NCBI GenBank assembly: GCA_037349105.1
Contig: JAYJMM010000064.1
Coordinates: 928,957 to 992,956 of the forward strand
Origin: Limnomonas spitsbergensis
Taxonomy: Eukaryota; Chlorophyta; Chlorophyceae; Chlamydomonadales
Reading direction: 5' to 3'
Length of the DNA: 64,000 nucleotides
A program made the position numbers and the translations under genes. Positions 2,924-63,943 of the stretch are shown in pieces. The notes under the pieces were generated by a model. That model did not search any database. It saw only the letters and a program-made list of their open reading frames with translations, and was not told the origin of the DNA. How positions within the stretch are numbered: the first letter of the stretch is position 1; each line of letters begins with the position of its first letter.

Positions 2924-2967
2924 GCTCGTGATGCTACCCGGTATGTGCAGCATCCCCATCCCCGCTG
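2924..2967 (+). CDS. Candidate P4H exon upstream of the RTSS exon
   Basis: A 44-base segment lies between an acceptor ending in cag and a donor gtaaaa. Read in the phase the next exon requires, it gives LVMLPGMCSIPIPA. Two further 44-base copies follow at 2997-3040 (open; NAVLSGTGIPPITA) and 3090-3133 (in-frame stop), with a fragment from 3194. The equal lengths and preserved borders suggest an exon. The family match is too weak to be sure, and the first echo could be the one used. Confidence 0.35.
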
Positions 2968-5900
2968 GTAAAACTTGCATGTGAACATGTGGTCAGGAAT
3001 GCGGTGTTGTCAGGTACGGGCATCCCCCCAATTACCGCTGGTCACACTTAAAATGTGTGAAAATATGGTAACACTTCCATTTTAGTTAGGAATGCGGTGT
3101 TGTCCGGTTTGCGCATTCTCTGAATTACCGTTGGTCACACTTATAATGTGTGAAATGCCAATGGTCACTTTTCACATCACCCCTTTTGGCCAGGAACGCG
3201 GTGTTGTCGATTTTTGAACCCATAATTCATATTTCAAATCCCAATTGCCAGCAGACACCCAGATGTCCAGCCGCACTTCAAGCGACACCGTCTTCACCAG
3301 CGTAGCGTCTCGCCAACCACTGCTACTGGGAGCTGAAACACATTTCTTTGAGCCCATAATTCAAATTTCAAATCACAATTGCCCGCAGACACCCAGGCGC
3401 TGAACCGCACTTCAAAGTTACAAATCTGAACTGCCGACAGGTACCCAGGCGCCCAACCACACTTTAAATGACATCTTCTTCACCGGCGAAGGGTCTCGCC
3501 ACCCACTGCTGCTAGGTCTAGGACGCAGAATTGTAATCTGGAAATAAAAAAATCAAATCTCAACTGCTGGCAGGTACCCAGACGCCCAACCGCACTTCAA
3601 GCGACACCTTCTTTACTGGCGAAGCGTCTCGCCACCCACTGCTGCTGGAGTTGGAGCACAAGCTGGATCAGTTGGCCCAACTGCCGCAAGTAAGTGATGT
3701 TGGGTGTATGGCTGGTAGTGCTGCCCGGCTTAAGAACCAACTCAGTCTTGTGGCATAGGGTTTATTCGGGGTACTCGAAATGCTGGTCACCAGGCAGTTC
3801 CGCCCACACAACGTTTCTGAATAAATCATGGGCTGCATTAAATCATGGGCTGCATTAAATCATGGGCTGCATTAAATCATGGGCTGCATTAAATCATGGG
3901 CTGCATTAAATCATGGGCTGCATTAAATCATGGGCTGAATTAAATCATGGGCTGCATTAAATCATGGGCTGCATTAAATCATGGGCTGCATTAAATCATG
4001 GGCTGCATTAAATCATGGGCTGCATTAAATCATGGGCTGCATTAAATCATGGGCTGCATTAAATCATGAGCTGCATTAAATCATGGGCTGAATTAAATCA
4101 TGGGCTGAATTAAATCATGGGCTGCATTAAATCATGGGCTGCATTAAATCATGGGCTGAATTAAATCATGGGCTGAATTAAATCATGGGCTAAATTAAAT
4201 CATGGGCTGAATTAAATCATGGGCTGCATTAAATCATGGGCTGCATTAAATCATGGGCTGCATTAAATCATGGGCTGCATTAAATCATGGGCTGCATTAA
4301 ATCATGGGCTGAATTAAATCATGAGCTGCATTAAATCATGGGCTGAATTAAATCATGGGCTGAATTAAATCATGGGCTGCATTAAATCATGGGCTGCATT
4401 AAATCATGGGCTGCATTAAATCATGGGCTGAATTAAATCATGGGCTGAATTAAATCATGGGCTGAATTAAATCATGGGCTGAATTAAATCATGGGCTGAA
4501 TTAAATCATGGGCTGAATTAAATCATGGGCTGAATTAAATCATGGGCTGAATTAAATCATGTGCTGATTTAAATCATGGGCTGCATTAAATCATGGGCTG
4601 AATTAAATCACAGGCTGAATTAAATCATGGGCTGAATTAAATCATGGCCTGCATTAAATCATGGGCTGAATTAAATCATGGCCTGCATTAAATCATGGGC
4701 TGAATTAAATCACGGGCTGAATTAAATCATGGGCTGAATTAAATCATGGCCTGAATTAAATCATGGGCTGAATTAAATCATGGGCTGAATTAAATCACGG
4801 GCTGAATTAAATCATGGGCTGAATTAAATCATGGCCTGCATTAAATCATGGGCTGAATTAAATCATGGCCTGCATTAAATCATGGGCTGAATTGAATCAC
4901 GGGCTGAATTAAATCATGGGCTGAATTAAATCATGGCCTGCATTAAATCATGGGCTGAATTAAATCACGGGCTGAATTAAATCATGGGCTGCATTAAATC
5001 ATGGGCTGCATTAAATCATGGGCTGAAATAAATCACGGGCTGAATTAAATCATGGGCTGCATTAAATCATGGGCTGAATTAAATCATGGGCTGAATTAAA
5101 TCATGGGCTGAATTAAATCATGGGCTGAATTAAATCATGGGTTGAATTAAATCACGGGCTGAATTAAATCATGGGCTGAATTAAATCATGGGCTGAATTA
5201 AATCATGGGCTGAATTAAATCATGGGCTGAATTAAATCATGGGCTGAATTAAATCATGGGCTGAATTAAATGTTGGGACCGAGAATATATTGGAGGTTTG
5301 CGTCGAATCCAGAGAGTTTTGAAAAATTGTTTGTTGAATTGTGTTGACTTTTGTTGAGTTTTTTTTCTATGCTGTGTTATGCTACCGTAGGAGCCCTGCT
5401 GCGCCAGCTGGACCAGCTTGCGTAGCTGCCGACAGCTAGACCCTTTCCCCCCACTCCTTCTCTTTATGAAAGTTCCCACCATGGTTTTGTCAGGGGCCCT
5501 GCTGCATCAGCTAGACCAGCTTGAGCAGCTGTTGAAAGCTTGACCAGCTTGAGCAGTTGCCGACAGCTAGACCAGCTTGAGCAGCTGTTGAAAGCTTGAC
5601 CAGCTTGAGCAGTTGCCGACAGCTAGACCAGCTTGAGCAGCTGCCGACAGCTAGACCAGCCTGCGCAGCTGCTGCACATGAAATATGTGGAGGAAGTTAA
5701 GGAGAATCCGTTTCATAGCCTCTCGGACATGTATGCGGTGGCCTGTCGATGATGTTATGGGGGCGGCTGGATGCTGTGAGATTCAGGCACACATGAGACT
5801 ATGAGAGGTATTGGCTGGACTGCACTACCAAGGTAGCACGATAAGGTTAAGCTGGATTGCACCACGGACTGCCAAGATGTCACGACACGGCGCAGTCAGG

Positions 5901-8900
5901 GCCGGATTTAAGTACCTAAGGCGCACGATATGGCACAAAACAGCGCACGATATGGCACAAAACAGCGTACGATATGGCACAAAACAGCGTACGATATGGC
6001 ACAAAACAGCGTACGATATGGCACAAAACAGCGTACGATATGGCACAAAACAGCGCACGATATGGCACAAAACAGCGTACGATATGGCACAAAACAGCGT
6101 ACGATATGGCACAAAACAGCGCACGATATGGCACAAAACAGCGTACGATATGGCACAAAACAGCGTACGATATGGCACAAAACAGCGCACGATATGGCAC
6201 AAAACAGCGTACGATATGGCACAAAACAGCGTACGATATGGCACAAAACAGCGTACGATATGGCACAAAACAGCGTACGATATGGCACAAAAACAGCGTA
6301 CGATATGGCACAAAACAGCGCACGATATGGCACAAAACAGCGTACGATATGGCACAAAACAGCGTACGATATGGCACAAAACAGCGCACGATATGGCACA
6401 AAACAGCGCACGATATGGCACCAAACAGCGCACGATATGGCACAAAACAGCGCACGATATGGCACAAAACAGCGCACGATATGGCACAAAACAGCGCACG
6501 ATATGGCACAAAACAGCGCAGGTTTTGTCGGCTTGTACTACCTTGCGGAGTGCCAGGTAGAGAAGATTGCGTCGAGGAATGCAGAGATTAATTTGCCGAC
6601 CCCTTCTAGTTGTCTGTCATGTATTCTTTTACTACTCCGCCATTTGGTTGCAGCCAAGATTCCTCAACTTCAAGGCCTCTTGGCGCCCGTGTCGCCCTCT
6701 CCTTTCCTTATAAACCCGACTGACGTTTTGTTTTGAAATCGTGGATAAACTTTGGCATCAATGAAGTCACTATTTTGTACCTCGTCTGAGGATTTTCGGA
6801 GGCAGACAGCCGGTGGCCCCGTCCAAGTCCAGCCACGTAGTACACTGCAAAAAAAGGAAATATGAAGCCCCCCAGTACCTCGTCCGTTCTCACTCTTTCC
6901 CACACTTCCACCACCATGGCCATTTTTTATATATGCAGATTATCAGAGACAGGCGGCTGGTGACCCTGTCTGAGTCCGTCCACGTGGTAAACTACCAACA
7001 GGGGAAATATGAAGCCTCCCATTACCTCATCCGTTCTCACTCTTTCCCACACCGTTTACCACCATGGCCACTCTTTGTATATGCAGATTATCGGAGGCAG
7101 GGGGCCGGTGGCCCAGAGTCTATCCAGGCAGTTCATTACCAGCAGGGGAGAGTCCATTTGTTTAACGGTTGAACGGTTGAATGGTTGAACGGTTGAACAA
7201 TTCGGTTGAACGGTTGAACAGTTGAACAATTCTTACAAATCTTACAAATCTTACGCCTGCGTGATAGTCCCTTGGTACCTCGTGTTTTCACACTATTGTT
7301 CACTCCTTCCATGTACAGATTAACGGAGGCAGGCGGCCGGTGGCCAGTCAGAAGCCATTCACGCGGTGCACTACCAGAAGGGGGCTTCAATGCCACTGCT
7401 TTCACACTCTCTCACACTTCCACCACCCTTGCCACTCTTTCCGTGTACAGATTAACGGAGGCAGGTGGCCGGTGGCCCAGTCCGAAGCCATCCACGCGGT
7501 GCACTACCAGCAGGGGGATTCAATTTCACTGCTTTCACACTTTCTCACACGTCCACAACCCTTGTCCCTCTTTCCATACACAGATCATCGGAGGCAGGCG
7601 GCCGGTGGCCCAGTCCGAAGCCATCCACGCGGTGCACTACCAGCAAGGAGAGTTCTATTTGGAGCATTATGACAACCGTGCTCCAGTCCCTGGCAGTCCC
7701 GGCGTTGAGTAGGTTACCGGGGTTAGGGCTAAAGGGATATAGGGGTTATAACGGTTGAGGGTGTAGGGTTTAGGGTAAGAGTAAACATTGTTAAACATCA
7801 ATGTTGTTTAATTTCAAAAACTCATGGGGAGTTAAACCTGGAGCATAATGACAACAGAGCGCCAATCCCAGGCAGCCCCGGCATCGCGTAGGTTACTAGG
7901 TTTTGGGGTCTAGGATGTAAGGGGTAGGGTTAGGGGTAGGGTTAGGGGTAGGATTAGGGTTAGGGTTGGGGGTTGGGGGTTGGGGGTTGGGGGTTGGGGG
8001 TTGGGGGTTGGGGGTTGGGGGTTGGGGGTTGGGGGTAGGGGGTAGGGGGTAGGGGGTAGGGGGTAGGGGGTAGGGGGTAGGGGGTAGGGGGTAGGTAGGG
8101 GTCATCCTTGTTTGATGTAAATGTTGTATTTTTTAAAAAAATAATTCATACTTGGTTTCTGGTTTCGGGTTTCGGGTTAAGGGTTAAGGGTTTAGGGTGT
8201 TGGGTTTCGGGTTTCGGGTTTCGGGTTTAGGGTTTAGGGTCGGATTCATTGTTTAACGTCGATGTTCTTTAATTTCATGGAAAATCCATGATGGGTTCTA
8301 CTTCGAGCATTACGAGGAATATGCACCAGTCCCCGGCAGCCCCCGGATTCTCATTCGTTAGGGGTATTGGGATTAGGGGTTAGGGTTTGGGGGTAGGTTT
8401 GGTTCCGTAGCTCAATTGGTAGAGCATCCTTCGCGAAGAATGGGGATGTTGGTTCGAATTGGTAAAACCTCTCGGCGTGAAATGCCGTAGCTGGTCGTGA
8501 GGGAAATCGCAAAAGATTACTGAGGGACCGTCGAGTGATTGATCCACAATTGCAATCACACGGGGAAGGATGCGTGTATCCTGTATGGGTCTGTCCCTCG
8601 GGATCGCCTACACCCAGGGATTGGAAACCATACGTACTTCCTACTTCTTACTTGGGGGTTGGGGGTTGGGGGTTTGGGGTTGTTGAGGGTTGTAGGGGGT
8701 TGTTGAGGGTTGTAGGGGGTTGTTGGGGGTTGTTGGGGGTTGTTGGAGGTTGTTGGGGGTTGTTGGGGGTTGTTGGGGGTAGGGGGTAGGCTCAATGGTG
8801 AGGCTTTCACCTGTAGGTCATCGCACCCCAAAAGAGGATTTCAGCATGACGCATTATGATAACCACACACACCAACAACCCCGGCATCATATACTTTGTT

Positions 8901-11900
8901 TTCGTTGTGGCGAAAGGGTTTATGGGGTTCGGAGTCAATGGGACTCATACTTTCAGGTCGTACTTTCAGGTCATAGCCCCTCCTCGTTTACCTACACGAT
9001 CAAATTCAATGCCTGCAGGCCATCAGTCCGCGAGAAGTGTCATTCACCTACAATTTAATTTCAATGCATGCCGGCGATTCGCGATAATTATTAAATACTT
9101 GAATTTTGATTTCATAGTGCATGCAAGAGGTTAGGAACGATAATACCATTATTTAATTGAATTTAATTTAAATCTTAATGCTTTCAGGCGATCTGTGATG
9201 CGTAGTGTTCAGTTTTTTGAAATAACAGCGTGGATGCGGCCACAGCCCCAAGCTGCATTGTTTCCTGAACCTCCAAGCTTTATCCAGTCTTACCTTCGTC
9301 GATACCTTCGTCATACCTTCGTCATACCTTCGTCATACCTTCGTCAATACCTTCGTCATACCTTCGTCATTGTACCTTCGTCATACCTTCGTCATACCTT
9401 CGTCGATACCTTCGTCATACCTTCGTCATACCTTCGTCATACCTTCGTCATACCTTCGTCATACCTTCGTCATACCTTCGTCGATACCTTCGTCGATACC
9501 TTCGTCATACCTTCGTCGATACCTTCGTCGATACCTTCTTCGATACCTTCGTCGATACCTTCGTCGATACCTTTGTCGATACATGGACGTTGAACTTCAA
9601 AGTTTGATCAAAATAACGCCCTTGAACCAACCCAAAATTCCTTCAAGATTTCTCCTGTAAATTTCAAGCCGTGATTGTTTCCTGACCCCCCACGCCCAAG
9701 AAGGGCGTACCGTACCGTACATTTGAATAGCCTTCCCGCACCCCTATATTGTATATTAAGCCCGCCGGTTTATTTGATTGTTTATTAATGTCCGCAGGGA
9801 CTAGATCAATTCTTTATTAGACCACGCACAGCCCGATTCCGACCAATTCCGCCTGATTCCAACCGATTCTGCCCGTTGTCAATATTGCACACCCTGGATA
9901 TTCATGATTTGATACTCCGCGATGTGACACCTATTGCGCACCCCTCAAAAAATATCATTTTTGCACCACTGTAATCTGAAGGTAGCTTTCTTTGCTACCT
10001 TCTACCTGTTTCATTTATCTCAATCTTTGCAGGCGGTCCGCCACGTTGTTAATTTACGCTGTTAATTTACGGTTGCATCACAAACACGAACAGGGGACCC
10101 TGGTCGACTTAAGGGTTGAGGAATCACCACTCAAACATGTCATCATAATTCAAACATGTCATCATAATTCAAACATGTCATCATAATGCAAACATGTCGT
10201 CATAATTCAAACATGTCATCATAATTCAAACATGTCGTCACCATTCAAACATGTCATCATTCATATATATTTTGAATTTCAATGTGCTTTCGGGCGTTCC
10301 GCGATAATATGATTATCCGAATGATAGTAACGAATACGATTATCTGAGATAGTAAGATTGTAATTTACCTCTGCAGCACGGCCAAGGGACAGGCCAAGAT
10401 TTTAGAGGAAGGCTCATAAATTAAATATTTAAAATTTAAATCAAAAATGCAAAATTTCGATTCCAATGCCTGCAGGTGATCTGCAACAATGATCATTTAC
10501 CAGTACTTTTCTTTCCAATGCCTGCTGGCGACCCAATAATGAATAAATACCTGCAATCCAATTTGGAATGCGCTTGCAGGCGTCACGCGACAATCATCAT
10601 TTACAACACTGCAACGTGGCTAATGGCAGGGACACAGTCTCAGGGTTTGGGATTCATAAATTAAGAATTGTGTATATTTTAATGCTTGCAGGCGGTCCGT
10701 GGCCATGTCAATATTTACCCATGCACGACATAATGAAGGACTGGACTACTTTTTGTGTTTTGCGTTTATGAAATATTTTTTACTCACCATGCTTGCAGGC
10801 GTCGCGCGACAATCATCATTTACCTCTGTGACACGGCCAAGGGCGGGGGGACGCCATTTCAGGGTTTGGGGCTCATTAATTTAAAAATGAATTTAATGCT
10901 TGCAGGCGATAAGACACGAACAACATTTACCCGGCAACACAGCCAATGAAGCATCGATTTTAGGATTTAGGGATCCCAAATCGAAATTGAATTTAATGCT
11001 TGCAGGCGATCGGACACGAACAACATTTACCCGGCGACACATCCAAGGAAGTATCGATTTAGAATTTAGGGATCCCAAATCGAAATTTAATTTCAATGAT
11101 TGCAGGCGATCCGCGACGATTTCCTACGATACCTCTGCGACACGATACCTCTGCGACACGATACCTCTGCGACACGATACCTCTGCGACACGATTCCTCT
11201 GCGACACGATACCTCTGCGACACGATACCTCTGCGACACGATACCTCTGCGACACGATACCTCTGCGACACGATACCTCTGCAACACGATACCTCTGCGA
11301 CACGATACCTCTGCGACACGATACCTCCGCGACACGATACCTCTGCGACACGATACCTCTGCGACTCGATACCTCTGCGACACGATACCTCTGCGACACG
11401 ATACCTCTGCGACACGATACCTCTGCGACACGATACATCTGCGACACGATACCTCAGCGACACGATACCTCTGCGACTCGATACCTCTGCGACACGATAC
11501 ATCTGCGACACGATACCTCTGCGACACGATACATCTGCGACACGATACATCTGCGACACGACACCTCTGCGACACGATACATCTGCGACACGACACCTCT
11601 GCGACACGATACCTCTGCGACACGATACCTCTACGACACGATACCTCTGCGACACGATACATCTGCGACACGATACCTCTGCGACACGATACATCTGCGA
11701 CACGATACCTCTGCGACACGATACATCTGCGACACGATACCTCTGCCACACGATACATCTGCGACACGATACATCTGCGACACGACACCTCTGCGACACG
11801 ATACCTCTGCGACACGATACCTCTACGACACGATACCTCTGCGACACGATACATCTGCGACACGATACCTCTGCGACACGATACATCGGCGACAGGATAC

Positions 11901-14900
11901 CTCTGCGACACGATACATCTGCGACACGATACCTCTGCGACACGATACCTCTGCGACACGATACCTCTGCGACACGATACCTCTGCGACACGATACATCT
12001 GCGACACGACACCTCTGCGACACGATACCTCTGCGACACGATACCTCTACGACACGATACCTCTGCGACACGATACATCTGCGACACGATACCTCTGCGA
12101 CACGATACATCTGCGACACGATACCTCTGCGACACGATACATCTGCGACACGATACCTCTGCGACACGATACCTCTGCGACACGATACCTCTGCGACACG
12201 ATACCTCTGCGACACGATACCTCTGCGACACGATACCTCTGCGACACGATACCTCTGCGACACGATACACGATACCTCTGCGACACGATACCTCTGCGAC
12301 ACGATACCTCTGCGACACGATACCTCTGCGACACGATACCTCTGCGACACGATACCTCTGCGACACGATACCTCTGCGACACGATACCTCTGCGACACGA
12401 TACCTCTGCGACACGATACCTCTGCGACACGATACCTCTGCGACACGATACCTCTGCGGCACGATACCTCTGCGACACGATACCTCTGCGACACGATACC
12501 TCCGCGACACGATACCTCTGCGACACGATACCTCTGCGACACGACACCTCTGCGACACGATACATCTGCGACACGATACCTCTGCGACACAATACCTCTG
12601 CGACACGATACCTCCGCGACACGATACCTCTGCGACACGATACACGATACCTCTGCGACACGATACCTCTGCGACACGATACACGATACCTCTGCGACAC
12701 GATACCTCTGCGACACGATACCTCTGCGACACGATACCTCTGCGACACGATACCTCTGCGACACGATACCTCTGCGACACGATACCTCTGCGACACGATA
12801 CCTCTGCGACACGATACCTCTGCGACACGATACCTCTGCGACACGATACCTCTGCGACACGATACCTCTGCGACACGATACCTCCGCGACACGATACCTC
12901 TGCGACACGATACCTCTGCGACACGATACCTCTGCGACACGATACCTCTGCGACACGATACCTCTGCGACACGATACCTCTGCGACACGATACCTCTGCG
13001 ACACGATACCTCCGCGACACGATACCTCTGCGACACGATACCTCTGCGACACGATACCTCTGCGACACGATACATCTGCGACACGATACCTCTGCGACAC
13101 GATACCTCTGCGACACGATACCTCTGCGACACGATACCTCTGCGACACGATACCTCTGCGACACGATACCTCTGCGACACGATACACGATACCTCTGCGA
13201 CACGATACCTCTGCGACACGATACCTCTGCGACACGATACCTCTGCGACACGATACCTCTGCGACACGATACATCTGCGACACGATACCTCTGCGACACG
13301 ATACCTTTGCGACTCGATACCTCTGCGACACGATACCTCTGCGACACGATACCTCTGCGACACGATAACTCTGCGACACGATACCTCTGCGACACGATAC
13401 CTCTGCGACACGATACACGATACCTCTGCGACACGATACCTCTGCGACACGATACCTCTGCGACACGATACCTCTGCGACACGATACCTCTGCGACACGA
13501 TACCTCTGCGACACGATACCTCTGCGACACGATACCTCTGCGACACGATACCTCTGCGACACGATACCTCTGCGACACGATACCTCTGCGACACGATACC
13601 TCCGCGACACGATACCTCTGCGACACGATACCTCTGCGACTCGATACCTCTGCGACACGATACCTTTGCGACACGATACATCTGCGACACGATACCTCTG
13701 CGACACGATACCTCTGCGACACGATACCTCTGCGACACGATACCTCTGCGACACGATACCTCTGCGACACGATACCTCTGCGACACGATACCTCCGCGAC
13801 ACGATACCTCTGCGACACGATACACGATACCTCTGCGACACGATACCTCTGCGACACGATACACGATACCTCTGCGACACGATACCTCTGCGACACGATA
13901 CCTCTGCGACACGATACCTCTGCGACACGATACCTCTGCGACACGATACCTCTGCGACACGATACCTCTGCGACACGATACCTCTGCGACACGATACCTC
14001 CGCGACACGATACCTCTGCGACACGATACCTCTGCGACTCGATACCTCTGCGACACGATACCTCTGCGACACGATACCTCTGCGACACGATACCTCTGCG
14101 ACACGATACATCTGCGACACGATACCTCTGCCACTCGATACCTCTGCGACACGATACCTCTGCGACACGATACACGATACCTCTGCGACACGATACCTCT
14201 GCCACACGATACCTCTGCGACACGATACCTCTGCGACACGATACCTCCGCGACACGATACCTCTGCGACACGATACCTCTGCGACTCGATACCTCTGCGA
14301 CACGATACCTCTGCGACACGATACCTCTGCGACACGATACCTCTGCGACACGATACCTCTGCGACACGATACCTCTGCGACACGATACCTCTGCGACACG
14401 ATACCTCTGCGACACGATACCTCTGCGACACGATACCTCTGCGACACGATACCTCTGCGACTCGATACCTCTGCGACACGATACCTCTGCGACACGATAC
14501 CTCTGCGACTCGATACCTCTGCGACACGATACCTCTGCGACACGATACCTCTGCGACACGATACCTCTGCGACACGATACCTCTGCGACACGATACCTCT
14601 GCGACACGGACAATGGCAGGCCCACGTTTTGAGTGCCCAATTCCATAAAGCAAAATTTGGAATTCAATGCTTGCAGCTGATCATTTACCTAAAAATTATA
14701 TTCAATATATAAAGTGTACATATTCAACATAAAGTGTAATACTTGCAATCTATGCGCGACAATCATCATTTATCCGATCACAAATTAAGGGCTCGTCTTT
14801 TGTACCGGCATACAGTTTATTAACTATTTTTCTCAACTTCAATGCTTGCAGGCGATCCGCGACCGTCATCATTTACCTTTGCGACACAATGAAGGGCGGG

Positions 14901-17900
14901 ACCACGTTTTCAGGGCCCAGGTCGATAAATGAAATTCTGACTCAAATGCTTGCAGATTATCATGAACCTCTGCAACAGGACGGACAAGGGTTGATTTTTG
15001 TAAAGAGCATATATAAAGTATTTTAATTACCATGCTTGCAGGCGATCCGCGACCGTCATCATTTACCTCAGCGACACAGCCAGGGGCGGGGCCACGTTCT
15101 TCCCTCGGTCAACAGGTAAATCCGGGGTCCAGGTTTTAGGGCTTAGGGTTAAGAGATTAGAGTTTAAGGTTAAGGACTTAGGGTTTATGTTTCGGGGCCC
15201 AGAGTTTCGATTTTTTTATGTTTAGTTTTCATCCTTGCGACACAGCCAAGGGCGGGGCGACGTTTTTTCCTAGGTCTACAGGTAAATCCGGGTTCAGGTA
15301 TTAGTGTTTGGGGTTTAGGGTTTAGGGTTTAGGGTTTAGGGTTTAGGGTTTAGGGTTTAGGGTCCAGGTGCTAAGGTTTATGGTCCAGGTTTGAAGGTTA
15401 AGTTTCGTTTTTTTTTAGTTAAGATTTCATCTCTGCGACACAGCCAAGGGCGGGGCCACGTTCTTCTCTACTGGTAAATCTGGGGTCCAGGATTTAGTGT
15501 CTATGGTTCAAATTTAGGGCTAAGGGTTTTGGGGGTTTGGATTTTAGGTTTTGGGTTCATGGTATCGTGTCCAAGGGCGGGACGACGTTCCCCTTAGGGT
15601 TTAAAGGTAAAAAGAGAGAAAACTACACCCAACAGGGCGTGAGGGTTAAGGAAACAGTGCGGGATGGGCCTAGGCAGTGTCCGCGATGTTACAACTATAG
15701 GCGGGGCCACGTTCTTCCTGCCGTCTGAAGATAAAAGGAGAGAAAGCCATGCTCCGCAGGGGCGTGAGGGTTAAGGAGACAGTGCGGTCTGGGCCTAGGC
15801 AGCGTCCGCGCTGTTACAACCAAGGGCGGGGCCACATTCTTCCCGCTGTATAAAGATAAAAGGAGAGAAAGCCACCCTCCACAGGGGCGTGAGGGTTAAG
15901 GAAACAGTGCAGGATGGGCGTATGTAGCGTCCGCGCTGTTACAACCAAGGGCGGGGCCACATTCTTCCCGCTGTATAAAGATAAAAGGAGAGAAAGCCAC
16001 GCTCCACAGGGGCGTGAGGGTTAAGGAAACAGTGCGGTCTGGGCCTAGGCAGCGTCCGCGCTGTTACAACTAAGGGCGGGGCCACATTCTTCCCGCCGTC
16101 TGAAGATAAAAGGAGAGAAAGCCATGCTCCGCAGGGGCGTGAGGGTTAAGGAAACAGTGCAGGATGGGCCTAGGCAGCGTCCGCGCTGTTACAACCAAGG
16201 GCGGGGCCACGTTCTTCCCGCTGTCTGAAGATAAAAGGAGAGAAAGCCACGCTCCGCAGGGGCGTGAGGGTTAAGGAAACAGTGCAGGATGGGCCTAGGC
16301 AGCGTCCGCGCTGTTACAACTAAGGGCGGGGCCACATTCTTCCCGCCGTCTGAAGATAAAAGGAGAGAAAGCCATGCTCCACAGGGGCGTGAGGGTTAAG
16401 GAAACAGTGCGGGATGGGCGTATGTAGCGTCCGCGCTGTTACAACCAAGGGCGGGGCCACGTTCTTCCTGCTGTATAAAGATGAAAGGAGAGAAAGCCAT
16501 GCTCCACAGGGGCGTGAGGGTTAAGGAAACAGTGCGGGATGGGCCTAGGCAGCGTCCGCGCTGTTACAACCAAGGGCGGGGCCACATTCTTCCCGCTGTA
16601 TAAAGATAAAAGGAGAGAAAGCCTTGCTCCACAGGGGCGTGAGGGTTAAGGAAACAGTGCGGCATGGGCCTAGGCAGCGTCCGCGCTGTTACAACCAAGG
16701 GTGGGGCCACATTCTTCCCGCCGTCTGAAGATAAAAGGAGAGAAAGCCACGCTCCACAGGGGCGTGAGGGTTAAGGAAACAGTGCGGTATGGGCCTAGGC
16801 AGCGTCCGCGCTGTTACAACCAAGGGCGGGGCCACATTCTTCCCGCTGTATAAAGATAAAAGGAGAGAAAGCCACCCTCCACAGGGGCGTGAGGGTTAAG
16901 GAAACAGTGCAGGATGGGCGTATGTAGCGTCCGCGCTGTTACAACCAAGGGCGGGGCCACATTCTTCCCGCTGTATAAAGATAAAAGGAGAGAAAGCCAC
17001 GCTCCACAGGGGCGTGAGGGTTAAGGAAACAGTGCGGTCTGGGCCTAGGCAGCGTCCGCGCTGTTACAACTAAGGGCGGGGCCACATTCTTCCCGCCGTC
17101 TGAAGATAAAAGGAGAGAAAGCCATGCTCCGCAGGGGCGTGAGGGTTAAGGAAACAGTGCAGGATGGGCCTAGGCAGCGTCCGCGCTGTTACAACCAAGG
17201 GCGGGGCCACGTTCTTCCCGCTGTCTGAAGATAAAAGGAGAGAAAGCCACGCTCCGCAGGGGCGTGAGGGTTAAGGAAACAGTGCAGGATGGGCCTAGGC
17301 AGCGTCCGCGCTGTTACAACTAAGGGCGGGGCCACATTCTTCCCGCCGTCTGAAGATAAGAGGAGAGAAAGCCATGCTCCACAGGGGCGTGAGGGTTAAG
17401 GAAACAGTGCGGGATGGGCGTATGTAGCGTCCGCGCTGTTACAACCAAGGGCGGGGCCACGTTCTTCCTGCTGTATAAAGATGAAAGGAGAGAAAGCCAT
17501 GCTCCACAGGGGCGTAAGGGTTAAGGAAACAGTGCGGGATGGGCCTAGGCAGCGTCCGCGCTGTTACAACCAAGGGCGGGGCCACATTCTTCCCGCTGTA
17601 TAAAGATAAAAGGAGAGAAAGCCTTGCTCCACAGGGGCGTGAGGGTTAAGGAAACAGTGCGGCATGGGCCTAGGCAGCGTCCGCGCTGTTACAACCAAGG
17701 GTGGGGCCACATTCTTCCCGCCGTCTGAAGATAAAAGGAGAGAAAGCCACGCTCCACAGGGGCGTGAGGGTTAAGGAAACAGTGCGGTCTGGGCCTAGGC
17801 AGCGTCCGCGCTGTTACAACCAAGGGCGGGGCCACATTCTTCCCGCCGTCTGAAGATGAAAGGAGAGAAAGCCACGCTCCACAGGGGCGTGAGGGTTAAG

Positions 17901-20900
17901 GAAACAGTGCGGTCTGGGCCTAGGCAGCGTCCACGCTGTTACAACCAAGGGCGGGGCCACATTCTTCCCGCCGTCTGAAGATAAAAGGAGAGAAAGCCAT
18001 GCTCCGCAGGGGCGTGAGGGTTAAGGAAACAGTGCGGTCTGGGCCTAGGCAGCGTCCGCGCTGTTACAACCAAGGGCGGGGCCACATTCTTCCCGCTGTA
18101 TAAAGATAAAAGGAGAGAAAGCCACGCTCCACAGGGGCGTGAGGGTTAAGGAAACAGTGCGGTATGGGCCTAGGCAGCGTCCGCGCTGTTACAACCAAGG
18201 GCGGGGCCACATTCTTCCCGCTGTATAAAGATAAAAGGAGAGAAAGCCACGCTCCACAGGGGCGTGAGGGTTAAGGAAACAGTGCGGTCTGGGCCTAGGC
18301 AGCGTCCGCGCTGTTACAACCAAGGGTGGGGCCACATTCTTCCCGCCGTCTGAAGATAAAAGGAGAGAAAGCCACCCTCCACAGGGGCGTGAGGGTTAAG
18401 GAAACAGTGCGGTCTGGGCCTAGGCAGCGTCCGCGCTGTTACATCCAAGGGCAGGGCCACATTCTTCCCGTTGTATAAAGATAAAAGGAGAGAAAGCCAC
18501 GCTCCACAGGGGCGTGAGGGTTAAGGAAACAGTGCGGTCTGGGCCTAGGCAGCGTCCGCGCTGTTACAACCAAGGGCGGGGCCACATTCTTCCCGCCGTC
18601 TGAAGATAAAAGGAGAGAAAGCCACGCTCCACAGGGGCGTGAGGGTTAAGGAAACAGTGCGGTATGGGCCTAGGCAGCGTCCGCGCTGTTACAACCAAGG
18701 GCGGGGCCACATTCTTCCCGCTGTATAAAGATAAAAGGAGAGAAAGCCATGCTCCGCAGGGGCGTGAGGGTTAAGGAAACAGTGCGGTATGGGCCTAGGC
18801 AGCGTCCGCGCTGTTACAACGAAGGGCGGGGCCACGTTCTTCCCGCCGTCTGAAGATAAAAGGAGAGAAAGCCACGCTCCACAGGGGCGTGAGGGTTAAG
18901 GAAACAGTGCGGCCTGGGCCTAGGCAGCGTCCGCGCTGTTACAACCAAGGGTGCGGCCACATTCTTCCCGCCGTCTGAAGATAAAAGGAGAGAAAGCCAC
19001 CCTCCACAGGGGCGTGAGGGTTAAGGAAACAGTGCGGTCTGGGCCTAGGCAGCGTCCGCGCTGTTACAACCAAGGGCGGGGCCACATTCTTCCCGCTGTA
19101 TAAAGATAAAGGGAAAGAAAGCCACGCTCCGCAGGGGCGTGAGGGTTAAGGAAACAGTGCGGTCTGGGCCTATGCAGCGTCCGCGCTGTTACAACCAAGG
19201 GCGGGGCCACATTCTTCCCGCCGTCTGAAGATAAAAGGAGAGAAAGCCATGCTCCACAGGGGCGTGAGGGTTAAGGAAACAGTGCGGTATGGGCCTAGGC
19301 AGCGTCCGCGCTGTTACAACCAAGGGCGGGGCCACATTCTTCCCGCCGTCTGAAGATAAAAGGAGAGAAAGCCACGCTCCGCAGGGGCGTGAGGGTTAAG
19401 GAAACAGTGCGGTATGGGCCTAGGCAGCGTCCGCGCTGTTACAACCAAGGGTGGGGCCACATTCTTCCCGCCGTCTGAAGATAAAAGGAGAGAAAGCCAC
19501 CCTCCACAGGGGCGTGAGGGTTAAGGAAACAGTGCGGTCTGGGCCTAGGCAGCGTCCGCGCTGTTACAACCAAGGGCGGGGCCACATTCTTCCCGCTGTA
19601 TAAAGATAAAAGGAGAGAAAGCCATGCTCCGCAGGGGCGTGAGGGTTAAGGAAACAGTGCGGTCTGGGCCTAGGCAGCGTCCGCGCTGTTACAACCAAGG
19701 GCGGGGCCACATTCTTCCCGCTGTATAAAGATAAAAGGAGAGAAAGCCACGCTCCACAGGGGCTAGAGGGTTAAGGAAACAGTGCGGTCTGGGCCTAGGC
19801 AGCGTCCGCGCTGTTACAACCAAGGGCGGGGCCACGTTCTTCCTGCCGTCTGAAGATGAAAGGAGAGAAAGCCTTGCTCCGCAGGGGCGTGAGGGTTAAG
19901 GAAACAGTGCGGTATGGGCCTAGGCAGCGTCCGCGCTGTTACAACCAAGGGCGGGGCCACGTTCTTCCTGCCGTCTGAAGATGAAAGGAGAGAAAGCCAC
20001 GCTCCACAGGGGCGTGAGGGTTAAGGAAACAGTGCGGTATGGGCCTAGGCAGCGTCCGCGCTGTTACAACCAAGGGCGGGGCCACATTCTTCCCGCTGTA
20101 TAAAGATAAAAGGAGAGAAAGCCACGCTCCACAGGGGCGTGAGGGTTAAGGAAACAGTGCGGTATGGGCCTAGGCAGCGTCCGCGCTGTTACAACCAAGG
20201 GCGGGGCCACATTCTTCCCGCTGTATAAAGATAAAAGGAGAGAAAGCCACGCTCCACAGGGGCGTGAGGGTTAAGGAAACAGTGCGGTCTGGGCCTAGGC
20301 AGCGTCCGCGCTGTTACAACCAAGGGTGGGGCCACATTCTTCCCGCCGTCTGAAGATAAAAGGAGAGAAAGCCACCCTCCACAGGGGCGTGAGGGTTAAG
20401 GAAACAGTGCGGTATGGGCCTAGGCAGCGTCCGCGCTGTTACAACCAAGGGCGGGGCCACATTCTTCCCGTTGTATAAAGATAAAAGGAGAGAAAGCCAC
20501 GCTCCACAGGGGCGTGAGGGTTAAGGAAACAGTGCGGTATGGGCCTAGGCAGCGTCCGCGCTGTTACAACCAAGGGCGGGGCCACATTCTTCCCGCCGTC
20601 TGAAGATAAAAGGAGAGAAAGCCACGCTCCGCAGGGGCGTGAGGGTTAAGGAAACAGTGCGGTATGGGCCTAGGCAGCGTCCGCGCTGTTACAACCAAGG
20701 GTGGGGCCACATTCTTCCCGCCGTCTGAAGATAAAAGGAGAGAAAGCCACCCTCCACAGGGGCGTGAGGGTTAAGGAAACAGTGCGGGATGGGCCTAGGC
20801 AGCGTCCGCGCTGTTACAACCAAGGGCGGGGCCACATTCTTCCCGCTGTATAAAGATAAAAGGAGAGAAAGCCATGCTCCGCAGGGGCGTGAGGGTTAAG

Positions 20901-23900
20901 GAAACAGTGCGGTCTGGGCCTAGGCAGCGTCCGCGCTGTTACAACGAAGGGCGGGGCCACGTTCTTCCCGCCGTCTGAAGATAAAAGGATAGAAAGCCAC
21001 GCTCCACAGGGGCGTGAGGGTTAAGGAAACAGTGCGGTCTGGGCCTAGGCAGCGTCCGCGCTGTTACAACCAAGGGCGGGGCCACGTTCTTCCTGCCGTC
21101 TGAAGATGAAAGGAGAGAAAGCCTTGCTCCGCAGGGGCGTGAGGGTTAAGGAAACAGTGCGGTATGGGCCTAGGCAGCGTCCGCGCTGTTACAACCAAGG
21201 GCGGGGCCACGTTCTTCCTGCCGTCTGAAGATGAAAGGAGAGAAAGCCACGCTCCACAGGGGCGTGAGGGTTAAGGAAACAGTGCGGTATGGGCCTAGGC
21301 AGCGTCCGCGCTGTTACAACCAAGGGCGGGGCCACGTTCTTCCTGCCGTCTGAAGATGAAAGGAGAGAAAGCCTTGCTCCGCAGGGGCGTGAGGGTTAAG
21401 GAAACAGTGCGGTCTGGGCCTAGGCAGCGTCCGCGCTGTTACAACCAAGGGTAGGGCCACATTCTTCCTGCCGTCGGAAGATAAAAGAAGTGAAAGCCAC
21501 GCTCCGCAGGGGCGTGAGGGTTAAGGAAACAGTGCGGTCTGGGCCTATGCAGCGTCCGCGCTGTTACAACCAAGGGCGGGGCCACGTTCTTCCCGCCGTC
21601 TGAAGATAAAAGGAGAGAAAGCCACCCTCCACAGGGGCGTGAGGGTTAATGCAACAGTGCGGTCTGGGCCTAGGCAGCGTCCGCGCTGTTACAACCAAGG
21701 GCGGGGCCACATTCTTCCTGCCGTCTGAAGATAAAAGGAGAGAAAGCCTTGCTCCACAGGGGCGTGAGGGTTAAGGAAACAGTGCGGTATGGGCCTATGC
21801 AGCGTCCGCGCTGTTACAGCCAAGGGCAGGGCCACATTCTTCCCGCCGTCTAAAGATAAAGGAGAGAAAGCCATGCTCCGCAGGGGCGTAAGGGTTAAGG
21901 AAACAGTGCGGTCTGGGCCTAGGCAGCGTCCGCGCTGTTACAACCAAGGGCGGGGCCACATTCTTCCCGCTGTATAAAGATAAAAGGAGAGAAAGCCTTG
22001 CTCCGCAGGGGCGTGAGGGTTAAGGAAACAGTGCGGTCTGGGCCTAGGCAGCGTCCGCGCTGTTACAACCAAGGGTAGGGCCACATTCTTCCTGCCGTCG
22101 GAAGATAAAAGAAGTGAAAGCCACGCTCCGCAGGGGCGTGAGGGTTAAGGAAACAGTGCGGTCTGGGCCTATGCAGCGTCCGCGCTGTTACAACCAAGGG
22201 CGGGGCCACGTTCTTCCCGCCGTCTGAAGATAAAAGGAGAGAAAGCCATGCTCCACAGGGGCGTGAGGGTTAATGAAACAGTGCGGTCTGGGCCTAGGCA
22301 GCGTCCGCGCTGTTACAACCAAGGGCGGGGCCACATTCTTCCCGCTGTCTGAAGATAAAAGGAGAGAAAGCCTTGCTCCACAGGGGCGTGAGGGTTAAGG
22401 AAACAGTGCGGTATGGGCCTATGCAGCGTCCGCGCTGTTACAGCCAAGGGCAGGGCCACATTCTTCCCGCCGTCTAAAGATAAAGGAGAGAAAGCCATGC
22501 TCCGCAGGGGCGTAAGGGTTAAGGAAACAGTGCGGTCTGGGCCTAGGCAGCGTCCGCGCTGTTACAACCAAGGGCGGGGCCACATTCTTCCCGCTGTATA
22601 AAGATAAAAGGAGAGAAAGCCTTGCTCCGCAGGGGCGTGAGGGTTAAGGAAACAGTGCAGGATGGGCCTAGGCAGCGTCCGCGCTGTTACAACCAAGGGC
22701 AGGGCCTCATTTTTACGCTGTATAAAGATAAAAGGACAGAAAGCCACGCTCCGCAGGGGCGTGAGGGTTTAGGAAACAGTGCGGTATGGGCCTATGCAGC
22801 GTCCGCGCTGTTACAACCAAGGGCGGGGCCACATTCTTCCCGCCGTCTGAAGATAAAAGGAGAGAAAGCCACGCTCCACAGGGGCGTGAGGGTTAAGGAA
22901 ACAGTGCGGTATGGGCCTATGCAGCGTCCGCGCTGTTACAACCAAGGGCGGGGCCACATTCTTCCCGCCGTCTGAAGATAAAAGGAGAGAAAGTCACGCT
23001 CCACAGGGGCGTGAGGGTTAAGGAAACAGTGCGGTATGGGCCTAGGCAGCGTCCGCGCTGTTACAACCAAGGGCGGGGCCACATTCTTCCCGCCGTCTGA
23101 AGATAAAAGGAGAGAAAGCCATGCTCCGCAGGGGCGTGAGGGTTAAGGAAACAGTGCGGGAGACCTTAACCTTAAGAAGAATACCTGGATACCTGAATAC
23201 CCCTTTGAGGTATTCCTCACCCTGCAGGAATCCCTGGTGTCCTGTCCGCGGAAACTGCACCGAATTCTTTCCATCTGCTACTTTTATATATTTGTGCTTA
23301 ACCCTAAACCCTAGACCCTAAACCCTAAACCCTTCAATTTTAATCCTAAACATCTGGACCCTGAACCCTCAACCCCCAAACCCTAAATACTTAACCCCTT
23401 CCAGGTGTCCAGACCCTTAAAGACATCCCTGGTGTCCTGTCCCCCAAGACCGTCGCAGCCCGCCCCCTCCAGCTGAAGGATATCCTTTCTGCATGCTTAA
23501 AATATGTTATCCTAAACCCTCAACCCTAACCAGGTATTCCCACCTCTCAAGACATCCCTGGTGTCCTTTCCGCGGAGACCGTTGCGGCCCGTTCCCTCCA
23601 GCTGCACAATGACCCTCAAGTAGAGCGGCCAGGCTTACGCGTCTACCCCGTCAAGGGCCGGGCCATGTTGTTCTGGTAAGTGAAGGAGGCGCACAACTCA
23701 CTTCAAATAAACATTGAAATGTGTAGGTGAGCGGCTCCTCGGTCTCCCACCAGCTGCACAATGATTCCCATTTAGAGCGGCCAGGCTTACGCGTCTACCC
23801 CGCCAAGGCCCGGGCCATCCTGTTCTGGTGAGTTGAAGAGGCGGGCGAATCTAATCACTTCATGTAAACATTGAAATTGACAAGTGGGTGGCTCCTCGGT

Positions 23901-25954: not shown

Positions 25955-26409
25955 TTTTAAAACTGGTTCAAAGACAAGGACTAAAGGCTTGTGTCAAAGC
26001 TGTTCCTCTATTGTCCGAAATGTGCCATGTGCTGTGCTCAAAGGAGAAAAGCGGATCGCAGCACGGTGGTTCAAAGAGGAGGAATAATTTCGAACCGGAA
26101 GTGCAGCGAGGTTGTTCAAAGAGGACGATTCAAGCATGGGATGGACGTTGTTGCTTGCAAAGAAGATGATTGATATTGCTATTCCTATTTTCCCGAACGC
26201 TCCATCAGCGTATGCTGTGCTCGTGGGAGGAAAGCGGATTGCGACGCGGTGGTTCAAAGAGGAGGATTAAATCCTTGTGTCAAAGTTGCTCTTCTATTGT
26301 TCTGAATGTGCCGTATGCTGTTCTTAAGGGAGAAAAGTGGATTGCGGCGCGGTGTTATAAAGAAGAGGATTAATTCCAAAACGGGATTGCGGCGTTGTTG
26401 TATGTCTAA

Positions 26410-26990: not shown

Positions 26991-27061
26991 TGGACGTTGA
27001 TGGGCGCAAAGGGGAGCCTTAATTTCAGGTGTTTGTTTAGTTTGATTGATATTCCCCTGGA

Positions 27062-62000: not shown

Positions 62001-63943
62001 GGGTGGTTGGGTGGGTGGTTGGGTGGGTGGTTGGGTGGGAGAATATCCTAACGGGTATCAATGCCCCAATTGATTTGGATGACGTGGAAGAGGTGATCAG
62101 CGGTTGGTTGTGCGGGTGCCTGGGTGGGTGGATAGTTCTCTAAGCCCCATTTCTTAACTGTACCTGTCATTTAGTCATAGCGGCGGAGTGACAGTTCGAG
62201 AGGCAATCTCAGCAGTCACAAGTGCATAATCCGGAAACCTAGGTTTTATTGTGCCGGCCAGCGTAGTTGTATCTCCGTTTCGTCGTGATTTGTGATATAT
62301 CGAGCGCCTTCAAATAGCCACTGCTGGTTGAATAACCACGGGGTGGGATATGTTGCTACGGCCCCAAGCCACGCTGTTTGCTGAACCTCCATGCCCTAGT
62401 AGGGCGTAGCTTTCTCCCTTTCTTTGTTCAGATGTGCAAACAAAAAACTGACTCACAAAGCTTCAAGGGAGGTCAGCAGCCCGATCTCGGTCGGAAGCTT
62501 CCGGATTCCATTGTTTGACAGCCACCTGTGAGACGCAGGGATGACACCGCAATGAGATGTTTGGTTGTATATCCACGGGGTGGGTTTGTTGGTTAGGCTA
62601 TCACACACACCTCCCTCTGAATGGTGTCAAAGGCCCGGACTGGGATGGTGCGGAAGAGGTGAGCGACGGGTGGGTGTGTGGTGGGTGGACGTCCTATGGT
62701 TGGTTGGTTGGGTGGGTGGGTGGGTGGGTGGGTGGTTGGATGTCATATGGTTGAGTGGGTGGGTGGGTGGGTGTCATATGGATGTTTGGGTGGGTGGGTG
62801 GGTGGGTGGGTGGGTAGATGTCACATGGTTGGGTGGGTGGGGGGTGGGTGGGTGGTTGGGTGCGTGGGTGGGTGGGTGGGTGGGTGGATCCTGATGATTT
62901 TGCTTGAATAATATAAATAATAAATAAAAACAAAGTAAGGAGGTATGAATGCATGGATTAAGCCAACTGCCTGTTAAAATAAAAGGTATAAAAACACACA
63001 TGCCCACAAACCCTAAACCCTAAGCCTAAAGCCTTGTCTCCAGGTTTTGGCATGGGCGACTTATTTGCTGGCAAGCTGCCCGTCCACTTGTAACAAAGCA
63101 AATGCTCATAAACCCTAGATCCTAAACCCTAAACCCTACACCCTTGCTCCCCAGGTTTTGGCGTTCGACTTCTTTGCTCGTCGATGTGGTGGACGGGGTG
63201 GAGCTTGTGCTGGTCGCGCATGATTATAATCATATAATAAATGTGTGAATCAAAGAAGTCGATTATCAATCCTTGTCCAACAAATGCCGGACCTGTCTCC
63301 CCAGGTGTTGGCCTGGACAACGTCTTTGCTGGACGATGTGGTGGACGGGGTGGAGCTTGTGCTGGTCGCGCATAATAATTATCATATAATAAATGTGTGA
63401 ATCAAAGAAGTCGATTATCAATCCTTGTCCAACAAATGCCGGACCTGTCTCCCCAGGTGTTGGCCTGGACAACCTCTTTGCAAGCAAGCTACCTGTCAAA
63501 TTGTATCAAAACAAAAAGTGCCTAACCCTCATCCCCAGGTATTGGCGTGGACAACGTCTTTGCTGGACGATGTGGTGGACGGGGTGGAGCTTGCGTTGGT
63601 CGCGCATAAAGAGCCGGCAGCAGCTGTTGTATCAAAACAAATGCCAAACCTGTGTCCCCAGGTGTTGGCGTGGACGGCTTTCTTGCAAGCAAGCTGTCCG
63701 TCAAAATGTATTAAAAACAAAATGCCCCTAAGCCCTAAACCTTATACCCTTACCCTAAACCCTCGCCCCCCCAGGTGTTGGCCTGGACAACGTCTTTGCT
63801 GGACGATGTGGTGGACGGGGTGGAGCTGGCGCTGGTCGCGCATAAAGAGTCGACAGCAGCTGCGGCGGCGGCGGCGGCAGCAGCGGCTGCTGCTGGGAAT
63901 TCGGATGGTGGCTTGGGCTCGCCTGCCCTGAAGGCACCTGGAG
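46929..63943 (+). CDS. Rrp6/EXOSC10-like nuclear exosome nuclease, N-terminal (PMC2NT-like) part, runs off window
   Basis: Rrp6/EXOSC10 is the 3'-5' exoribonuclease of the nuclear exosome. Its N-terminal PMC2NT domain binds the cofactor Rrp47/C1D. Exons: 46929-47051, 59651-59731, 61347-61433 and 63775-63943, all joined in phase 0. The product runs [20 protein letters not shown], ..[40 protein letters not shown], ..[14 protein letters not shown], ..[20 protein letters not shown]. The pattern A..AL..L...S..LP....FYY..SFPAF followed by helices fits PMC2NT as I know it. A KRQR basic cluster could be a nuclear signal. The nuclease (DEDD) and HRDC domains would lie beyond 64000, so the assignment is moderate. 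The start is the first ATG after an in-frame TAA. Confidence 0.6.
47085..47345 (+). pseudogene. Two echoes of Rrp6-like exon 1
   Basis: Decayed copies of caaagcgcagcgcgccttaa, tggccctcattgacactg appear at about 47139-47175 (cagcgcagcttgtacgggct, gttctcgttgacacc) and 47258-47295 (cgcagcgtgccctggctg, ttctcattgaccc). They are set in units of about 120 bp that also repeat the following intron (ggcatgggg, ttttccatgg). Confidence 0.7.
47350..51866. repeat. 68-bp satellite, about 66 copies
   Basis: The unit contains cagccaacactgacagcacc, ccatcccagtgcttctctta and gtgggcaccagaccaggggg. A few units carry 1-3 base insertions (47933, 49833, 50995, 51462). Diagnostic variants (ggtcgcc, ggccgccggg, gtgagcacc) recur in blocks. 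It lies in the first intron of the Rrp6-like gene. A reading frame of 61 codons recurs on the minus strand in most units but is a by-product. Confidence 0.97.
51867..52100. other. no gene seen
   Basis: Short unique stretch with a palindromic ggccttaggcc near 51942 and GGCC-rich text resembling 33790-33990. Confidence 0.5.
52101..53665. repeat. 20-bp satellite, about 78 copies
   Basis: The unit is tgtgggtgtggacatggtca, with gacacggcta and ggccttg variants and 21-base units (gtgggacacgg). Larger blocks are duplicated: 52160-52440 resembles 52680-52975, and a block around 53370-53460 is repeated three times. Confidence 0.97.
54012..54206. mobile_element. Family-D element with GGGTAACCC ends
   Basis: Opens gggtaacccggtacggaag and ends cactgggtaaccca. 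The interior holds repeated acggtacggt and cgatacgatacgg. The near-palindromic termini at both ends suggest a small DNA-type element. It is preceded by an 18-G run. Confidence 0.5.
54245..54600. repeat. 7-bp array ggggcat
   Basis: Runs of ggggcatggggcatggggc with occasional gcggcat, ggggctt and gaggcat variants. All frames are open on both strands. Confidence 0.95.
54725..55015. repeat. Approximately 19-bp G-rich array
   Basis: Units of catgcagggaggggagggg with gcatggggaggggagg variants. Strongly G-rich on the plus strand. Confidence 0.93.
55095..58010. repeat. 12-bp satellite catggggagggg, about 240 copies
   Basis: Nearly uninterrupted for 2.9 kb, with gaac, gagg and ggtg variants grouped in blocks (the gaac variant dominates 55500-56400). 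Every frame on both strands is open, producing spurious frames of up to about 940 codons. Dense G4-compatible runs lie on the plus (transcribed-sense) strand. Confidence 0.97.
58012..58095 (-). CDS. Candidate unidentified minus-strand exon
   Basis: On the minus strand, tacccctgccgtaaaag leads into [20 protein letters not shown] and YKFR before gtgaac. The segment is unique and amphipathic. It may belong with the S..DDK.C.S shards at 53.7-55.1 kb as a nested or transposed gene fragment. No family recognised. Confidence 0.25.
58095..58330. mobile_element. Family-D related block
   Basis: Starts gggttacccagtacagcc and continues with ctgtaccgcgctgtactgc and tgtccgtaccgtacttg units (16-18 bp, five copies). 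No matching right end was found. Confidence 0.4.
58575..59105. repeat. 16-bp array cagctgtttgaattcc, about 33 copies
   Basis: Units alternate between ttgaattcccagctgt and ttgacttcccagctgt. It is immediately upstream of the exon-2 echo series of the Rrp6-like gene, and contains a cag each unit that could act as a decoy acceptor. Confidence 0.95.
59120..59650 (+). pseudogene. Echo copies of Rrp6-like exon 2
   Basis: Copies begin after ctgcag or atgcag at about 59136, 59229 and 59319, plus one lacking the acceptor at about 59417. Each repeats decayed [13 protein letters not shown] codons (for example [14 protein letters not shown] at 59319). The tail of the block is a 14-bp tcacacctggctgtac array (59475-59630). 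Confidence 0.72.
59651..59731 (+). CDS. Rrp6-like exon 2 (SFPAF segment)
   Basis: Between tctgcag and gtgagt the frame reads [20 protein letters not shown], then STLESCA. Joined to exon 1 it gives [12 protein letters not shown], the most recognisable part of a PMC2NT domain. Phase 0 at both ends. A decayed copy of the 3' half follows at about 59812-59870. Confidence 0.72.
59920..60740. repeat. About 23-bp array with CCCTAAA cores, about 35 copies
   Basis: Units read ccctaaaccctagggaccta plus gtacc. The telomere-like ccctaaa is embedded in each. Variants (tatgacc, ccaggga) cluster locally. Confidence 0.95.
60785..60945 (+). mobile_element. Family-B element, full-length-like
   Basis: Reads acggcaacggcgcggatgtg, gctttggcccaggctgcgct, gtttcttaactctcac and a t-rich ttttttttctttctcc tail. 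It is preceded by another partial head (acggtaacggcgcgatgc). Confidence 0.65.
60955..61240 (+). pseudogene. Echo copies of Rrp6-like exon 3 start, with a 29-bp repeat
   Basis: Copies of cagaccctcatg lie at 60953 (QTLMVPGM) and about 61196 ([10 protein letters not shown]). Each is preceded by cccag or caacag and followed by cccagtacctcct. Between them six ~29-bp units of tacattactctttatgtg are found. Confidence 0.7.
61347..61433 (+). CDS. Rrp6-like exon 3
   Basis: After tcccag and before gtgagc the frame reads [20 protein letters not shown], then APDWDDAEE. 87 bases, phase 0 at both ends. The basic RPKRQR followed by an acidic DWDDAEE is kept in the downstream echoes. Confidence 0.68.
61480..62100 (+). 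pseudogene. Echoes of Rrp6-like exon 3 (3' part), six copies with splice donors
   Basis: Copies of [10 protein letters not shown] followed by gtgagc, gtgaga or gtgatc end at about 61541, 61655, 61767, 61870 (stop and altered donor), 61980 and 62093. Those at 61655 and 61980 also include the RPKR.RA part. After each donor the intron begins ggttggttgggtgggtggg, so donor and G-rich tract were copied together. A seventh lies near 62680. Confidence 0.75.
62100..63040. repeat. Intron with GGGT repeats, family-B copy and one exon-3 echo
   Basis: 62336-62430 is a family-B element. About 62626-62660 is an exon-3 echo (GPDWDGAEE then gtgagc). 62690-62886 is a ggtgggtgggtggttggg array. The remainder shows no coding signal. 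ccctaaaccctaa appears at 63010 and 63120. Confidence 0.75.
63044..63774 (+). pseudogene. Six echoes of Rrp6-like exon 4
   Basis: Copies begin after ccccag or ctccag at 63044, 63155, 63305, 63457, 63539 and 63662. Two versions occur. Long: [20 protein letters not shown], at 63155 (frameshifted), 63305 and 63539. Short: [16 protein letters not shown], at 63044, 63457 and 63662. The 63539 copy stays open through [10 protein letters not shown] caaagaagtcgattatcaat plus ccttgtcc block is also duplicated (63249 and 63403). Confidence 0.75.
63775..63943 (+). CDS. Rrp6-like exon 4 with poly-Ala run
   Basis: After ccccag the frame reads [26 protein letters not shown], a run of 14 alanines from gcg/gca triplets, then [16 protein letters not shown], with a likely donor gtgcgg at 63944. 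Frame continues exon 3 (DDAEE-VLAW). If unspliced it would stop at 63969. The helix would close the PMC2NT-like domain. Confidence 0.6.

Follow-up and report, generated by a model that had tools for sequence, protein, structure and literature searches.

The final 64 kb of contig JAYJMM010000064.1 of Limnomonas spitsbergensis (assembly GCA_037349105.1, positions 928,957 to 992,956 of the forward strand; hereafter the window, always at its full 64,000 nucleotides) holds a prolyl 4-hydroxylase (P4H) gene and two putative gene regions whose exons are accompanied by copies of their own edges, here called echoes. Why are copies of an exon's 5' half found upstream of it and copies of its 3' half downstream, and does this order require a process acting on exons? 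A preliminary description of the locus supposed that duplications preferentially start inside exons, by a process without a name. The answer reached here is that the echoes are very probably the leftovers of small tandem duplications blind to exons, kept where one whole exon survives.

Copy order at the window exons

Similar stretches were sought up to 5 kb upstream and up to 9 kb downstream of eight exons (P4H exons A, C, E, D and F, GNAT-like exons g1 and g2, and exon R2 of an Rrp6-like region), picked partly because the preliminary description pointed there and hence not a blind choice. Echoes at exon edges are real: seven of the eight exons carry diverged edge copies that include the acceptor or donor and a little intron, while exon D has whole copies only. 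Upstream there are 30 copies of 5' edges, three whole copies (two of exon D, one of g1) and one internal copy; downstream there are 68 copies of 3' edges and one internal copy. As many as 61 of these 3'-edge copies follow exon E, the site of a 125-bp array, well beyond the 1 to about 18 copies per exon originally reported. Altogether 98 of the 103 copies conform to the order, five are whole or internal and none is contrary, copies inside one array being non-independent events in this tally. Among these copies, no upstream one holds a 3' edge alone and no downstream one a 5' edge alone. The copies are mostly 70-95% identical to their exon. Reversed exon queries, used as a control, give no match for five of the eight exons and eight, one and two matches for g1, g2 and R2, respectively, which makes the short g1 matches the least secure.

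The P4H gene lies on the + strand, and its five exons join in consistent phase at hand-checked joints, as first described. The joined exons match PF13640 at 50.9 bits against a cut-off of 27, and an earlier joining (51.9 bits) also matches solved prolyl 4-hydroxylases. The predicted Chlamydomonas eustigma homologue P0002 spans the A/C/E joints, and the predicted homologues P0001 and P0003 span the E/D/F joints but have additional residues between E and D; the model may lack a small exon there. The exons, their copies and the two arrays that flank exon E are:

3574..3689, + strand: P4H exon A, TGGCAG / GTAAGT borders, P0002 match across the A/C joint
3234..3513, + strand: three upstream 5'-edge echoes of exon A (3234-3342, 3368-3415, 3421-3513), 81-87% identity
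7584..7708, + strand: P4H exon C, ACACAG / GTAGGT borders, homologue match
6796..7526, + strand: five upstream 5'-edge echoes of exon C, 76-88% identity
7823-7907 and 8295-8343, + strand: two downstream 3'-edge echoes of exon C, from similarity search
15042..15115, + strand: P4H exon E, TTGCAG / GTAAAT borders, homologue match
10572..14908, + strand: nine upstream 5'-edge echoes of exon E, flanking the 16-bp array on either side
11126..14608, + strand: 16-bp array of about 214 copies, unit with a 14-nt piece of exon E (13 identities; z 5.8)
15237-15304 and 15431-15497, + strand: two further downstream 3'-edge echoes of exon E, from similarity search
15604..23159, + strand: 125-bp array of about 60 copies, unit aligning across 45 nt with the 3' half and donor region of exon E (z 13.4)
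23930..23984, + strand: P4H exon D, last among three whole copies, any of which may be the one used
23593-23693 and 23743-23843, + strand: two whole-exon copies of exon D, 83-85% identity
25846..25954, + strand: P4H exon F, last coding exon, with stop codon
25687..25765, + strand: one upstream 5'-edge echo of exon F, 95% identity
26034-26090, 26217-26266, 26327-26385, 27982-28034 and 29146-29189, + strand: five downstream 3'-edge echoes of exon F

The two arrays extend the order to satellite scale. The 16-bp array, whose start adjoins a 5'-edge echo of exon E, lies upstream of that exon and the 125-bp array lies downstream, as the rule predicts. These are two of 12 array units tested against the P4H exons; the remaining ten show no clear link to any of them. 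The first downstream echo of exon F (26034-26090) extends across the position of the stop codon, which means that an echo can form without splicing signals. A dispersed piece at 33.6, 36.1 and 44.8 kb resembles, by eye, part of the 125-bp array unit.

The other exons counted lie in two regions whose gene names, in the preliminary description, have fared less well than that of P4H. Their features are:

34880..34964, - strand: GNAT-like exon g1, from splice sites and reading frame
35036-35151 (whole), 35165-35207 and 36290-36326, - strand: three upstream copies of g1, for which the reversed control is unclean
34260..34366, - strand: GNAT-like exon g2, from splice sites and reading frame
34418..34722, - strand: four upstream 5'-edge echoes of g2, spaced about 86 bp apart
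63775..63935, + strand: exon R2 of the Rrp6-like region, 3' end uncertain, gene identity unconfirmed
63017..63675, + strand: six upstream 5'-edge echoes of R2, 75-97% identity
61365..62682, + strand: tandem or near-tandem copies (221-bp and 110-bp units) of a second putative exon of the Rrp6-like region, outside the polarity count

Joined, g1 and g2 give a short, incomplete peptide of 65 amino acids that matches no Pfam family, and reading frames of the region give none or noise; the GNAT label, which we take from a sequence motif, is unconfirmed by Pfam on such short peptides. The joined Rrp6-like pieces (87 amino acids, likewise short and incomplete) give only noise in Pfam, and the Rrp6/PMC2NT label, which comes from the preliminary description alone, is also unconfirmed.

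Echoes elsewhere in the genome

Two further sets of exons show that the echoes are a property of the genome, beyond one gene or contig, as the preliminary description had proposed. A chaperonin set was built with the PF00118 profile, which gives 72 exon matches; 63 of these, in 11 genes, were used, and nine in genes outside the set were dropped. A codon-usage set comprises exons predicted, after training on the chaperonin exons, in 19 stretches of 10 kb that were hand-chosen at round coordinates and are not a random draw. From 37 predictions three low-complexity ones were dropped and 34 kept; ten of the latter were tested with Pfam, and seven match at E 0.01 or better, two under the curated cut-off. 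Nearby copies are found for 17 of the 63 chaperonin exons, across eight of the 11 genes, and for six of the 34 codon-usage exons, which amounts to 23 of 97 (24%) when both sets are pooled. These 97 exons yield 25 side and edge classes: 16 upstream 5'-edge, eight downstream 3'-edge (one of which, beside the exon at 5718 in L030, perhaps echoes the exon that comes next), one downstream internal and none contrary. The rule that 5' copies lie upstream and 3' copies downstream thus holds 98 to 0 in the window and 24 to 0 elsewhere.

Non-exonic intervals from the same loci behave differently. Copies are found for 595 of 1,940 of them (31%), and the classes conform in 276 cases, are contrary in 531 and are whole or internal in 506; the matched length of the intervals was capped at 200 and some overlap arrays, which makes them a rough null. 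The order is a property of real exons and not of duplications generally, and the exons of these two sets are no richer in copies than intervals. Within the chaperonin gene spans, 7.4% of exon bases have a copy against 23.4% of other bases. Intron growth is linked to the copies: the compact chaperonin genes L031, L032 and L033 have none and compact L034 has one echo, with copies over 2% of its non-exonic span, while in the seven long chaperonin genes copies occupy 13-46% of the non-exonic span. In L030 one exon match ends in a stretch (6131-6165) resembling the start of the next exon, and the protein profile seems to continue there; this may be a trap for gene prediction.

Tandem Repeats Finder assigns 62% of the repeat-rich window to arrays, and 71% of window bases have a copy within 2 kb. 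Arrays are present in all 19 of the 10-kb stretches, with coverage ranging from 3% to 100%. Periods in the window and these stretches run from a few to a few hundred bases, head to tail.

A probable exon-blind origin

By far the most likely explanation for the order is frequent local tandem duplication that is blind to exons, most units being between tens of bases and a few hundred in length. Most such duplications would land in introns or between genes, lengthening them and occasionally growing into satellites. A unit over an acceptor would leave intron, a truncated 5' half, an intron end and the intact exon, the downstream copy being intact; a unit over a donor, or over the end of a last exon, would leave the intact exon, the start of an intron and a truncated 3' half, the upstream copy being intact. 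A duplication with both ends in introns would leave no echo and one with both ends inside an exon would break the exon, for which reason only edge-spanning duplications would appear as echoes. If one intact exon is required, the order follows and nothing else is needed. Selection would remove the duplications inside exons, and the broken copies that are kept would decay and be pushed outward by later duplications; both the filter and the outward push are steps that we infer. The molecular step may be replication slippage or another route using microhomology. A weak hint of microhomology is seen in the sequences: 54 of 92 isolated two-copy duplications match at least three bases past one unit, with 0.7 expected by chance, although in 24 of the 92 the match falls short of one unit and the 92 include remnants of arrays.

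Simulated exon-blind events, under the requirement of exactly one intact copy per exon and with 240 exons per setting, reproduce the order, and the supposed need for a process without a name is not supported. At a coverage of 0.33, echoes arise at 10-28% of exons (24% observed), with 92 conforming classes and one contrary class over two settings; at a coverage of 0.74, they arise at 33-64% of exons, with 270 conforming and nine contrary classes.

Several results weigh against this exon-blind origin, in addition to the roughness of the interval control. Copies accompany every one of the eight window exons, against 33-64% of exons in the simulation at a coverage of 0.74, although this was a non-blind choice of exons. 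In the window the first 20 nt inside exons are not depleted of copies (1.00 at 5' edges and 0.71 at 3' edges, against 0.74 in bulk; seven exons with approximate edges), and in the chaperonin genes coverage is 0.19 over the 20 exon bases next to the 5' edge, above the 0.13 at 10-60 nt outside. Families of 5'-edge echoes outnumber those of 3'-edge echoes by 23 to 10 or 11 in the chaperonin, codon-usage and window exons together, a borderline excess that was not predicted; it is present in the chaperonin genes (13 to 3 or 4) and absent in the codon-usage set (3 to 4). Among 28 spacer-bearing pairs picked out of 54, 18 spacers match neither flank at z 4 or more, so that many cases are not clean tandem pairs now, the analysis being ungapped and ambiguous where small indels break diagonals. 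The paralogues L035 and L036 (exons at 5559 and 6705, L036 turned) have a common echo. At two of the three sites that differ, its exon part follows the exon of the same gene, whereas its intron part has diverged; these sites suggest conversion or repeated events. Finally, all copy counts come from one genome.

The shared echo of L035 and L036 also bears on whether the echoes are inert. In two other paralogous exon pairs the truncation points are unlike (by eye), and the echoes there look lineage-specific. It seems to us doubtful that some echoes trade sequence with their exon through gene conversion, or act as competing acceptors; if they did, a gene would carry a self-renewing halo of its own exon edges, in which satellites and occasionally new introns or exons arise.

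Alternative explanations

Duplication might instead be aimed at exons or splice sites, for example by coupling to transcription or splicing, and start inside exons, as the preliminary description suggested. Taken alone, the window favours this, with copies at all eight exons and edges that are not depleted, and so does the excess of 5' over 3' edges (about 23 to 10). In the two sets elsewhere, however, exons and their edges have fewer copies than bulk sequence does. Coverage there is 0.30-0.35 where the nearest known exon is over 400 nt away. It is 0.05-0.18 at 10-60 nt outside an exon edge, 0.06-0.19 over the first 20 nt of exon sequence and 0.03-0.10 at a depth of 40-60 nt within the exon; the corresponding window values are a background of 0.74 and 0.43-0.94 at 10-60 nt outside. 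Neither this profile outside the window nor the interval control (24% of exons against 31% of intervals) gives support to targeting, and the arrays in every sampled stretch and the echoed stop-codon end of exon F tell against it as well. Exon-specific targeting is rejected as improbable.

The copies could also be functional, as alternative or mutually exclusive exons or as decoy splice sites regulating splicing. Of the 30 upstream echoes in the window that can be aligned, 29 retain the acceptor AG, and each of the three whole copies of exon D is open and compatible in phase. Yet the majority of copies are truncated, and the predicted P4H homologues hold each exon once. Only three of the 103 window copies are whole, and to judge from their sequences the copies do not form the set of whole, alternative, spliced exons that defines mutually exclusive exons. 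In 15 aligned chaperonin pairs, about six upstream echoes have no AG in place (two of them with AG one base off, by eye), and local alignment favours rows that keep the AG; the echoes of six chaperonin exons were realigned with MAFFT. Constraint on echo acceptors is rejected on these losses and this bias, and a function for the copies is very improbable.

Pieces of exons may alternatively have been copied and pasted nearby, through templated repair insertions or capture by an element, without tandem duplication. The 18 spacers unlike both flanks are compatible with this, as are L036 and L037, in which the exon part is similar and the intron part mostly not. Free insertion would, however, place 5' pieces on both sides of an exon, contrary to the 24 to 0 and 98 to 0 observed, and clean tandem units exist, such as the L035 echo (period 102, alignment about 105). 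Unmatched spacers can also result where the intron part has decayed or later events overlap the first, and we give copy-and-paste very little credence. An assembly artefact, which the position of the window at a contig end and its density in repeats might suggest, is negligible in view of the divergence of most copies, the validity of the rule on other contigs and an assembly made, according to the genome report, from PacBio reads (read L50 near 33 kb) and polished with PacBio and Illumina data (PMC11228838).

Other repeats in the window

Interstitial TTTAGGG arrays, which we take to be the plant-type telomere repeat, lie at 44699-44785, 15290-15363 and 37664-37708, one of them perfect across 12 copies. 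A dispersed repeat occurs at 8458-8652, 32113-32270 and 40732-40941, with 77-79% identity between copies. Degenerate 8-bp arrays (CATGCAGC-like) at 35459-35845 and 43000-43749 yield long low-complexity reading frames on both strands. A long G-rich array at 54231-58002, mostly of 12-bp units, has a strong GC skew and several long open frames.

Meaning and comparison with known systems

If about a quarter of exons are scarred in this way, as the 23 of 97 indicate, the scars would be fossils of past tandem duplication, as sifted by selection. From them one could measure intron growth and the frequency of splice-site duplication, and see how gene predictors may err, many echoes retaining the acceptor AG. 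L. spitsbergensis is a snow alga with a published assembly of 260.248 Mb in 124 contigs and 54.15% GC, and, in the annotation section of that report, two BRAKER pipelines give more exons per coding sequence and longer introns than full-length transcripts (PMC11228838); this excess may be tied to the echoes. Long introns and satellite DNA are known from Chlamydomonas relatives (PMC8226300). In the open-licence literature no account was found of polarised or one-sided exon-edge copies as a genome-wide feature, which is not proof of absence.

The nearest published case found, and the same kind of event, is the RdRp gene of potato, in which a tandem genomic duplication across an intron-exon boundary made a new intron and a second, 83-bp tandem duplication is intronic (PMC4974935). 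As in the alga, duplication over the boundary leaves a copied intron end and exon start. The potato event, however, gave rise to a new intron, whereas in the alga there are many events, the exon chain is apparently unchanged and the extra copy decays in the intron. Related to this is the model of Rogers, with cases in Drosophila, in which introns are gained through duplicated exonic segments with AGGT; population data cited in that work indicate that such duplications are common and selected against (PMC2891723). There, too, the structure of genes is altered by local tandem duplications within exons or at their borders, but in that model duplicated exon sequence is made into an intron, while in the alga existing introns grow.

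The growth of minisatellites and satellites in introns and intergenic DNA likewise produces arrays of units joined head to tail, each between a few and a few hundred bases long, as seen here, and differs in that at least two large arrays of the alga hold recognisable pieces of a coding exon. Tandem exon duplication, together with mutually exclusive exons, is a further system of a known kind. Exon D, with its three whole and phase-compatible copies, resembles it, whereas nearly all other copies in the alga are partial, one-sided and diverged.

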